This document shows positions 17,850 through 21,636 of a stretch of 64,000 bases of DNA, in pieces. Made by a program: the position numbers and the translations under genes. Position 1 is the first letter of the stretch. Every line of letters begins with the position of its first letter. Below the pieces are notes generated by a model. That model was not told where the DNA came from. It worked only from the letters and a program-made list of their open reading frames with translations, and ran no database searches. Source of the DNA: Thermoflexus hugenholtzii JAD2 (lineage in GTDB: Bacteria; Chloroflexota; Anaerolineae; Thermoflexales; Thermoflexaceae); the NCBI RefSeq assembly GCF_900187885.1, contig NZ_FYEK01000003.1:253977-317976 (forward strand), written 5' to 3'.

Positions 17850-19466
17850 ATGTGGCGCATCGCGTTGACGGACCCGCTGGACGATGAAGGGCTGGCGCTG
17901 CTGCGCGCGGACCCCGAGGTGGAGGTGCTGGAGGCCCGACGGCCCTCGCCGGAGACGCTGCGGGAGCTGGTCCGGACCTGCGACGCGCTGATCGTGCGCA
18001 GCGGGGTCCGGCTGGACGCGAAGGTGCTGGAGGCGGCGGAGCGGCTCCGGGTGATCGCCCGGGCGGGCATCGGCGTGGACAACATCGACCTGGAGGCGGC
18101 CACGCAAAGGGGGATCCTGGTGATGAACACGCCCGCGGCCAGCACGGTGGCCGTGGCGGAACACACCTTCGCGCTGCTGCTGGCCCTCCTTCGCAAGATC
18201 CCCCCGGCCTGGCTCTCCCTGCGGGAGGGCCGCTGGGAGCGGGAGCGCTTCCTCGGGGTCCAGCTGGCGGGCAAGACGATGGGGTTGCTGGGGTTGGGGC
18301 GGATCGGGACGGAGGTGGCCCGCCGGGCCCGCGCCTTCGAGATGCACGTGATCGCCTTTGATCCCTACATCCCTGAGGAGCGGGCCGCGGCCTTGCAGAT
18401 CGAGCTGGTGCCCGATCTCGACGAGCTCTACGCCCGGTCTGACATCCTGAGCCTTCACGTTCCGCTCACCCGGGAAACCCACCGCATGCTCAACCGGGCG
18501 GCCTTTGAGAAGATGAAGCCCGGGATCTACGTGGTGAACACCGCTCGAGGCGCCGTGATCGATGAGGAGGCGCTCTTAGAGGCCTTGAACGCCGGTCGTG
18601 TCGCCGGGGCGGCCTTGGATACCTTCAGTGAGGAGCCGCCGCGCTCGCCGATCCTGCAGGCCCTGATCGCTCACGAACGGGTGCTGGCGGTGCCCCACCT
18701 GGGGGGCAGCACCCGGGAGGCCCAGCGCCTGATCAGCCGGCAGATCGCCCAGCAGGTGCTGGACGCCCTGCGGGGACGGGATTTCCGCAACGTGGTGAAC
18801 CTCCCCTTCCCGGAGGGAGCCGACTATCGCGCCCTGGCTCCCTATATGCGCCTGGCGGAGGTGCTGGGAAGCCTGCAGATGCAGCTCGTGCGGGGGCGCA
18901 TCCATCAAGTGGAGATCGATGTGCGGGGGGAGGAGCTGCGCTCGGTGATCCGGCCGCTGGGGGTGGCGTTGCTGAAAGGGCTGCTCACCCCTATCCTGGG
19001 GGACACGGTGACCTTCGTGAACGCCCCCGTGCGGGCCCAGGAGCACGGCATCCGCATCGTGGAGGCCCCCCAGCCAATCCTGGGGGCCTACGCCCAGGCC
19101 ATCGCCTGCCGGGTTCTCTCCACCAAAGAGGCGCGGCTGATCGTCGGTGCCCTGTTCGCCGGGGAGCCTCGCATCGTCCAGGTGGATGCCTTCCCGATGG
19201 AGGCGCTGCCCCGCGGGGCCCTGCTGGTCATGCGCAGCCGCGACGTGCCCGGGGTGATCGGCCGGGTGGGGACGCTCCTGGGTCAGCACGGGATCAACAT
19301 CGCCGAGTGGCGCCTGGGGCGAGACCGACCGGGTGGGACGGCCCTGTCGTTCATTAATCTGGACAGCCCGGCCCCGGAGGCCGTCTTAGAGGCCCTGCGC
19401 CGGATGCCGGAGATCGAAGACGTGCGCCAGGCCTTCCTGCCGGAGAGCATGGTAATCCGGGGATGA
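17850..19466 (+). CDS. serA: D-3-phosphoglycerate dehydrogenase
   Basis: 538 residues from ATG 17850 (GAGGAGG 8-9 nt upstream); GTG/ATG codons from 17817 overlap the previous gene and are less likely. The NAD-binding Rossmann motif is GLLGLGRIGTEVARRA (about residue 145). Catalytic Arg lies in VNTARGAVID, Glu in DTFSEEPP, and His in VPHLGGST. The C-terminus carries the ASB (allosteric substrate-binding) domain and an ACT domain (LVMRSRDVPGVIGRVGTLLG). This is the long SerA form, able to respond to serine. It catalyses the first step of serine synthesis; the operon gives the three-step pathway. Confidence 0.95.
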   Translation: MWRIALTDPLDDEGLALLRADPEVEVLEARRPSPETLRELVRTCDALIVRSGVRLDAKVLEAAERLRVIARAGIGVDNIDLEAATQRGILVMNTPAASTVAVAEHTFALLLALLRKIPPAWLSLREGRWERERFLGVQLAGKTMGLLGLGRIGTEVARRARAFEMHVIAFDPYIPEERAAALQIELVPDLDELYARSDILSLHVPLTRETHRMLNRAAFEKMKPGIYVVNTARGAVIDEEALLEALNAGRVAGAALDTFSEEPPRSPILQALIAHERVLAVPHLGGSTREAQRLISRQIAQQVLDALRGRDFRNVVNLPFPEGADYRALAPYMRLAEVLGSLQMQLVRGRIHQVEIDVRGEELRSVIRPLGVALLKGLLTPILGDTVTFVNAPVRAQEHGIRIVEAPQPILGAYAQAIACRVLSTKEARLIVGALFAGEPRIVQVDAFPMEALPRGALLVMRSRDVPGVIGRVGTLLGQHGINIAEWRLGRDRPGGTALSFINLDSPAPEAVLEALRRMPEIEDVRQAFLPESMVIRG

Positions 19467-19498
19467 TCCCAGGCGATCCTTCGCGCGAGGGAACCCAG

Positions 19499-20857
19499 AT
19501 GCTGCGCCCGGAAGATCGCATCCTGGTCACGGATCTGTATGAGCTGACCATGGCCCAGGCCTACTGGGCCCATGGAGTCACTGGCCAGGCCACCTTCAGC
19601 CTGTTCGTGCGGGATCTCCCGCCGGAGCGAGGCTTTCTGGTGGCAGCCGGCCTGGAGGATGTGCTCCGCTTCCTGGAAGATTTCCGCTTCCCCCCGGAAG
19701 CCCTGGCGTATCTGGAGTCCACCGGGATCTTCGCCCGCCCCTTCCTGGATTACCTCGCCGAGCTGCGTTTCACCGGGGACGTGTGGGCGGTCCCGGAGGG
19801 GACGCTGGTGTTCGCCCAGGAGCCGATCCTGGAGATCACGGCGCCCATCATCCAGGCCCAGATCGCGGAGACCTATGTGATCAACCAGGTGCACCTGCAG
19901 ACGATGATCGCCACCAAGGCCGCTCGCTGCGTCGCGGCCGCCCGGGGGCGAGGGGTGGTGGATTTCGCCCTGCGGCGGACGCACGGGGTGGACGCCGGGC
20001 TGAAGGTCGCCCGCTGCTCGTATCTAGTGGGCTTCCAGGCCACCAGCAACGTCCTGGCGGGCAAGGTCTACGGGATCCCCATCACGGGGACCATGGCCCA
20101 CTCGTTCATTATGGCCTTTCCGGAAGAAGAGGAAGCCTTCCGGGCCTTCGCGGAGACCTTCCCGGAGCGGGCGATCTTCCTCATCGACACGTATGACACG
20201 CTGGAGGGGGCCCGTCGGGCCGCCCGGGTGGGCCGGGAGCTGCGGGAGCGAGGGCGTCGCCTGCTCGGGGTGCGCCTGGACAGCGGGGATCTGCTTGCCC
20301 TCAGCCGGGAGGTGCGCCGCATCCTGGACGAGGCGGGCCTTCCCGAGGTGCGGATCCTGGCCAGCGGGGGGCTGGATGAATACCGCATCGAGGCGCTGGT
20401 GGGGGCCGGTGCGCCCATCGACGCCTTCGGGGTGGGGACCCGGATGGGGGTTTCGGAGGACTGGCCGTGGCTGGACATGGCCTACAAGCTGGTGGCCTAT
20501 GAGGGCCGTCCGGCCCGCAAATTGAGCCCGGGCAAGGCGTCCCTTCCCGGCCCGAAGCAGGTTTTCCGGTTTTACGATGGGGAGGGGAAGATGAAGGAGG
20601 ATATCCTGGCGCTGCGGGAGGAGCGGATCGAAGGGGGGACGCCGTTGCTGGAGAAGGTTATGGAGGGCGGGCGTCTGCTCCGCCCCCATCCGGCCCTGGC
20701 CGAGCTGCGGGAACGGTTTCGGGAGGCGTTCGGGCGGCTGCCGGAGCCCTACAAGGCCTTGCGGGAGGCCCCTCGCTATCCGGTGCGCCTCAGCCCCGGC
20801 TTGGAGGCCCTGGCGAACACGTTGACTGCTCCGAGGGAGGCGTTAGGAGAGAGCTGA
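19499..20857 (+). CDS. pncB: Nicotinate phosphoribosyltransferase
   Basis: 452 residues from ATG 19499 (GCGAGGGA 6 nt upstream). An in-frame ATG at 19463 would overlap serA by ATGA and is the alternative. The N-terminus LVTDLYELTMAQAYW is diagnostic. Later motifs include FALRRTHG, TGTMAHSFI (the active-site His follows TGTMA), and RLDSGDL and SGGLDEY for phosphoribosyl binding. It makes nicotinate mononucleotide from nicotinate and PRPP in NAD salvage. Placement after the NAD-dependent SerA may be coincidental or may link NAD supply with serine synthesis. Confidence 0.95.
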   Translation: MLRPEDRILVTDLYELTMAQAYWAHGVTGQATFSLFVRDLPPERGFLVAAGLEDVLRFLEDFRFPPEALAYLESTGIFARPFLDYLAELRFTGDVWAVPEGTLVFAQEPILEITAPIIQAQIAETYVINQVHLQTMIATKAARCVAAARGRGVVDFALRRTHGVDAGLKVARCSYLVGFQATSNVLAGKVYGIPITGTMAHSFIMAFPEEEEAFRAFAETFPERAIFLIDTYDTLEGARRAARVGRELRERGRRLLGVRLDSGDLLALSREVRRILDEAGLPEVRILASGGLDEYRIEALVGAGAPIDAFGVGTRMGVSEDWPWLDMAYKLVAYEGRPARKLSPGKASLPGPKQVFRFYDGEGKMKEDILALREERIEGGTPLLEKVMEGGRLLRPHPALAELRERFREAFGRLPEPYKALREAPRYPVRLSPGLEALANTLTAPREALGES

Positions 20858-20867
20858 ACGGCCTTTT

Positions 20868-21149
20868 CACGCCGATTGAAAATCGGCCTCTCCAGGCACT
20901 CCGCGCCCGGCGTCGGCCTCCGCCGACGCAGCAAATGCCTCTTCGGTCGGCGTAGGCCGACCATCGGCCGAAGGCCTCTCAAGGTCGAATTCACTCGACG
21001 CACAGGCCAACCGCCAGCCGAAGCCTCACGCCGATTGAAATCGGCCTCCCCAGGCGCTCCGCGCCCAGCGTCGGCCTCCGCCGACGCAAAAGAACACACT
21101 CCCGGTCGGCGCAGGCCGACCGTCGACCGAAGGCCTCTCAAGGTCGAAT

Positions 21150-21160
<11 letters not shown>
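20868..21160. repeat. Tandem pair of a multi-hairpin repeat (period about 159 bp)
   Basis: Copy 1 begins at 20868 and copy 2 at 21027, ending near 21160. Each holds the same ordered set of hairpins. In copy 1: GCCGATT/AATCGGC (20871-20887), GCGTCGGC-CTCC-GCCGACGC (20910-20929), GGTCGGC-GTAG-GCCGACC (20945-20962) and GTCGA-ATTCAC-TCGAC (20984-20999). Differences between copies are often compensatory or in loops (for example GTAG to GCAG). The block follows pncB and overlaps the end of the small gene at 21150. Confidence 0.8.
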
Positions 21161-21483
<323 letters not shown>

Positions 21484-21610: not shown

Positions 21611-21636
21611 TGTAGGGCAACTGCGCGCAGTTGCCC
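21611..21636. repeat. 26-nt palindromic element, copy 2
   Basis: TGTA followed by GGGCAACTGCG and its exact reverse complement (22-bp perfect palindrome 21615-21636). It matches the element at 10323-10348. Its 3' end (TTGCCC 21631-21636) is positioned as a possible -35 for the promoter at 21655. Confidence 0.65.

Follow-up and report, generated by a model that had tools for sequence, protein, structure and literature searches.

A two-unit tandem array of a six-hairpin repeat lies at positions 20871-21162 of the window, a 64,000-nucleotide stretch of DNA from the hot-spring bacterium Thermoflexus hugenholtzii JAD2, with a unit of ~130 bp and a period of ~160 bp (Table 1). The array probably consists of REP/BIME-like, non-autonomous elements that were spread via single-stranded DNA by a Y1 transposase and then tandemly amplified. 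The initial annotation had described a duplicated element of four hairpins; the duplication stands, as two tandem units, but the hairpin coordinates give six hairpins in each of them.

Table 1. Features of the array and its borders. The R1 repeat model was built from its own hits, which biases weak matches toward it and makes E-values rough.
Feature	Position (hairpins: in unit 1)	Hairpin position in unit 2	Strand	Basis or remark
Nicotinate phosphoribosyltransferase gene, H1 side of array	19463-20857		+	Pfam NAPRTase N and C domains; stop 20855-20857
Repeat unit 1 (H1 to H6)	20871-21003		+	R1 model 126.1 bits, E 9e-38
Inter-unit linker, GGCCAACCGCCAGCCGAAGC motif and CCTCAC lead	21004-21029		+	Unit alignment
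Repeat unit 2 (H1 to H6), final unit of array	21030-21162		+	R1 model 134.3 bits, E 3e-40
H1	20871-20887	21030-21045	+ (unit 1)	Loop TGAAA here, TGAA family-wide
H2	20895-20907	21053-21065
H3	20910-20929	21068-21087
H4	20945-20962	21104-21121
H5	20966-20976	21125-21135
H6	20983-20999	21142-21158	+ (unit 1)
H6 of unit 2 with TGA stop of truncated ORF		21142-21158	-	Stop at 21150-21152 (TCA on the plus strand)
TPR-protein gene remnant, truncated 3' end	21150-21343		-	21164-21343 matches TPR gene 3' ends

The two window units are spaced 159 bp start to start, with a linker of ~26 bp, share 93-94% identity over their long blocks, and fold on both strands far beyond shuffled sequences (z values of -6.3 and -8.4). 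Each unit is an inverted dyad in which H1-H2-H3 mirror H6-H5-H4, forming two opposed three-hairpin modules. H1 (GCCGATTGAAATCGGC) and the reverse complement of H6 (GCCGAATGAATTCGGC) are one hairpin type, so that the minus strand of H6 carries the TGAA loop of the family; H2 is mirrored by H5 and H3 by H4. As the unit is an imperfect inverted repeat, the R1 model matches both strands at one place. The loops are constrained and alternate strand within the unit: the minus-strand loop of H2 is GNA, or GNNA if one base longer, in 102 of 120 strict matches, a GNAG loop is found on the minus strand of H3 and on the plus strand of H4, and the H5 loop is mainly GAA. The cGNAg, cGNNAg and cGNABg types rank with the most stable loops of DNA mini-hairpins, which offers a lead. 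The repeat borders show TTTCAC or a similar sequence ahead of H1, and GTAG is absent from them. A candidate seventh hairpin in the linker (H7, GGCCGACCGTCGGCC) was discarded for its poor pairing, 30-63% at three of its pairs.

Conservation of pairing was assessed in a genus-level set of 155 distinct units, mostly from Thermoflexus, and in a wide set that draws 26 units from 12 genomes and extends to other families of the class. In the genus-level set, mismatches fall below the number predicted from column composition in H1 (19 versus 35), H3 (53 versus 79), H4 (32 versus 77) and H6 (29 versus 96), but not in H2 and H5. In the wide set 95.4% of cells are paired; loss of pairing in relatives, which the initial annotation had named as an outcome that would speak against selection on structure, is thus not observed. 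Both-sided changes occur there in 15 of 36 pairs, and the 44 cells concerned compare with 9.3 in shuffles, none of 500 shuffles attaining these values or that degree of pairing and slid controls lying far lower. The compensated changes that had been reported between the two window copies are a property of the family only: between unit 1 and unit 2 the changes are one-sided or fall in loops and linkers, mainly at single positions, and no true compensatory double change is present. Units from other families of the class have entire stems replaced, for example that of H1 (TCCGAG-TGAA-CTCGGA), and retain the TGAA and GNAG loops.

The genome-wide search for further copies that had been suggested finds ~66 units in the window's genome, in 43 arrays of 1-4 units each. 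The complete genome of a congener, G004, holds 150 units or more, its arrays reaching ~9 units, with periods of ~160, ~110 and ~92 bp, the shorter ones corresponding to the 160-bp unit without its last part. The motif GGCCGACCGTCGGCCGAAGGC is present in two copies per 160-bp unit; recombination between these copies would therefore yield the 110-bp form. Among named records, exact H1-H2 matches are almost all from Thermoflexus (Ca. T. tengchongensis, Ca. T. japonica and Thermoflexus sp. 629H.11, plus one other Chloroflexota bacterium); G001, G006 and G008 are listed under the genus of the window's genome. Across the class the repeat has a patchy distribution, in 86 of 298 genomes. Many array positions are common to the window's genome and G004, from which it follows that much of the spread is old, and many orthologous genes in congeners are without an array. 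No target duplication is visible at the repeat borders, and a common target motif or an exact empty site was not definable from borders and empty sites, the intergenic DNA being too diverged. GC skew, taken as a guide to replication-strand bias, is weak and noisy in the complete G004 genome (20 samples), and replication forks could not be placed from it. Among the papers retrieved by a literature search on repeats in Thermoflexus and on REP transposases with Chloroflexi, none describes this repeat family.

Other palindromes occur in the vicinity of these arrays. The window contains at 21612-21636 a palindrome led by GTAG (GTAGGGCAACTGCGCGCAGTTGCCC); G004 has palindromes like it (GCAACTGC..GCAGTTGC) in the corresponding intergenic region (L076), and they also occur at an array border of locus L065. 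They may represent another REP family of the genus, of the canonical GTAG type. A further REP-like palindrome (TAGGAGCGGCTTTAGCCGCGACC and GGGGCTAAAGCCCCTCCTAC) adjoins the six-hairpin array of L059 (G000:C29, ~785-920) in the window's genome, and is also found at the left-hand border of the L072 array (G004).

The window array starts a few bases past the stop codon of the nicotinate phosphoribosyltransferase gene. At this locus an array with an identical left border is present in G004, and no array is present in G001, G002, G003, G005, G006 or G007. On its other side, the minus-strand ORF at 21150-21392 is a truncated piece of a TPR-protein gene, 180 bp of which match the 3' end of a TPR gene that abuts the repeat elsewhere (84-88% identity with the TPR 3' ends that adjoin arrays in G000:C29, G004 and G006). 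The earlier proposal that the second copy supplies the C-terminal codons of this broken gene is borne out, its stop lying within H6 of unit 2. In G000:C29 and G004 a longer TPR gene lies next to the array at the orthologous position, the array measuring ~1.3 units in the one and ~9 in the other.

Supply of stop codons extends beyond the window. With genes flanking arrays called by a simple hexamer scorer, a gene 3' end facing the H6 end of an array has its stop inside H6 in ~18 of 43 cases, usually as TGA, a count that includes orthologous pairs and corresponds to about a dozen independent loci. The resulting proteins end in AE or VE, and orthologues of these genes in array-less congeners end in other codons. 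The repeats thus reshape gene ends, several proteins of the window's genome taking their last codons, AE or VE plus stop, from the repeat. In L108 (G006), which holds the orthologue of the right-hand gene of L024, the H6 TGA has become CGA and the frame stays open for a few more codons until a new stop; a repeat-supplied stop is thus replaceable.

The repeat is associated with one family of transposases. Genes for Y1 (IS200-like) transposases lie between repeat copies in G003, G004, G008 and G051, which, together with the dispersed copies and tandem arrays, supports the reading as a mobile non-autonomous element that had been offered among other possibilities. When the G003 protein was searched against the 298 genomes of the class and the best 30 loci were taken, repeat matches were found within ~150 bp of the transposase gene at 25 of them (on both sides at 22, at five not at all), although some of those beside divergent genes score low (15-40 bits) and repeats may partly insert near the gene rather than be acted on by it. 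These loci were picked by likeness to a single flanked gene, and those without flanking repeats rank among the most distant of the set; the association thus fades with distance. With a single exception, the repeat-flanked genes cluster in one part of the transposase tree, and when dispersed units were compared with the units beside transposase genes, the best match came from the same genome or a near lineage in most of ten cases.

Both the G003 and the G008 protein score above the cut-off of the NCBI IS200/IS605 model and far below that of the REP-tyrosine model (transposase scores of 65 against a cut-off of 55, and of 26 bits against a cut-off of 80 for NF047646); the G051 protein falls below both cut-offs. 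Their nearest solved structures are IS200/IS605 transposases. The sequences carry DHxH, WQ and YxxxQKxHH motifs: among the 30, YxxxQxxHH is found in 28, the xHxH form of the HuH motif in 29 (mostly DHxH, with I or V not always present) and WQ in 25. These motifs match those of TnpA-Y1 subclass 1.2 (DH[IV]H, WQ and Y---Q--HH; Quentin et al. 2018, PMC6006769), an assignment made by motif comparison. Genomes hold 1-4 tnpA matches. No Y1 transposase is detectable in the window's genome, whose units, the window array at 20871-21162 included, are therefore probably orphans and, with so many positions common to G004, look settled. The repeat-rich genomes G001 and G006 likewise give weak Y1 matches only, none to the repeat-flanked subfamily. 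The transposases at L151 (G125) and L152 (G266) are 84-86% identical to that of L150 (G003) although different families of the class carry them, a pattern suggestive of recent horizontal transfer of the gene.

Under the mechanism that we propose, the transposase would recognise hairpins, chiefly through their loops, in folded single-stranded DNA, cleave there and move or copy units in trans into intergenic DNA. Insertion at gene ends would be tolerated because the outer hairpin brings a TGA in frame. Arrays could then grow and shrink through unequal recombination of near-identical units or slippage between them during replication, and the units of the window would now change by recombination and decay, without a transposase.

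The preceding proposal has to be weighed against a role in RNA, in which the arrays would be 3' UTR terminators or stabilisers, or small RNAs, with pairing selected in the transcript. The very stable folds would fit such a role, as would the array end that often abuts or supplies a stop codon and an antisense orientation of the array in 32 of 43 co-directional gene pairs (32 to 11, among 67 arrays and over all genomes). In the window's genome alone, however, this bias is weak (18 of 26, or 18 to 8, p 0.08), and arrays occupy divergent, co-directional and convergent gaps alike. The constrained loops change strand within a unit, many orthologous genes of congeners manage without an array, and an Rfam covariance-model search of the window returned nothing at the gathering threshold. 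G-T and A-C mismatches are equally frequent in the 155 units (81 versus 88, H7 left out), so that there is no sign of one selected RNA strand; this lack of strand preference argues, at the level of sequence, for hairpins of DNA rather than RNA. A structured RNA is thus unlikely, and the small RNA or processing element of the initial annotation finds no backing. The same absence of strand preference would be expected if mutation bias alone were at work, with correction of quasi-palindromes and homogenisation of arrays perfecting the stems in the absence of selection, and template switching or gene conversion can indeed yield both-sided changes and array-specific unit types. Such processes leave unexplained why the loop bases (TGAA, GNA, GNAG) stay constant amid swapped stems and why the repeat is tied to one transposase family, which makes them an improbable sole cause.

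Structural sites in DNA, serving the nucleoid, gyrase or replication, near which a transposase inserts or by which it has been captured, would account for the positions kept between the window's genome and G004, and such roles are known for E. coli BIMEs in the literature. The patchy occurrence in the class, the same loci being empty in most congeners, and the lack of anything pointing to a host factor render this account quite improbable. It is very improbable that the repeat is an ordinary MITE of a DDE insertion sequence, comparable to the imperfect palindrome of ERIC: its form, a non-coding, intergenic, imperfect inverted repeat of ~130 bp, agrees with that of a MITE, but its borders show no visible target duplication, its ends are multi-hairpin with conserved loops, the enzyme found between copies is a Y1 HUH protein and, among the loci examined, no DDE transposase gene is bounded by these ends.

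Spread by a Y1 transposase thus being the preferred reading, the association suggests a pairing of mobile repeat and enzyme that had not been linked before. It would provide a candidate substrate and a mobile role for subclass 1.2, described in 2018 as being without REPs and IS features, and the natural series of units with changing stems and constant loops would offer a direct test of loop recognition by HUH enzymes.

Among known systems, REP, BIME and REPIN elements and their REPtrons (RAYT, TnpA-REP) share with the repeat dispersed intergenic palindromes, inverted pairs and tandem arrays, a Y1 HUH gene with cognate copies on its flanks (in relatives, not in the window's own genome) and termini that give stop codons (PMC3733652, PMC8266576), the last being known for GTAG REPs (PMC3733652). 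The repeat differs from REPs in having three hairpins, not one, in each half unit, six hairpins per unit instead of a palindrome of 20-50 nt, and no GTAG or CGTC tag; the tyrosine motif of its transposase is YxxxQKxHH, unlike the YxxxNP of the class 2 RAYT/TnpA-REP proteins, and its NF047646 score is below the cut-off. IS200/IS605 elements (subclass 1.1; IS608, ISDra2) resemble the system in the solved structures of their transposases, in hairpin ends and in the lack of an observed target duplication. They are near-identical, multi-copy elements with tnpA, often tnpB, and a single hairpin per end, whereas complete inverted dyads of ~110-130 bp, frequently tandem, flank the gene here, and gene copies per genome are few. 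PATEs of Haloquadratum are likewise non-autonomous partners of IS605-type transposases, with palindromes near their ends and no target duplication; theirs are near-terminal palindromes, and long tandem arrays are not described for them in the available portions of the source (PMC3119063). In TIRtrons (TIRYT), too, long repeats with partial self-complementarity flank Y1 genes and occur dispersed as well (PMC3733652), but most TIRYT fall in subclass 2.1, and a GGGGWSAS motif is common to many of the repeats (PMC6006769). The transposase agrees with subclass 1.2 in its motifs and short protein. That subclass is recorded without REPs and generally without IS200-type ends, mainly in Cyanobacteria and Bacteroidetes (PMC6006769), unlike the Chloroflexota hosts and the multi-hairpin R1 repeats flanking the gene here. 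We consider it an even chance that subclass 1.2 forms a distinct REPtron class in Chloroflexota, whose substrate would be a six-hairpin inverted dyad, its fixed GNA, GNNA or GNAG loops similar to those of highly stable DNA mini-hairpins, that amplifies into long tandem arrays and writes stop codons onto neighbouring genes.
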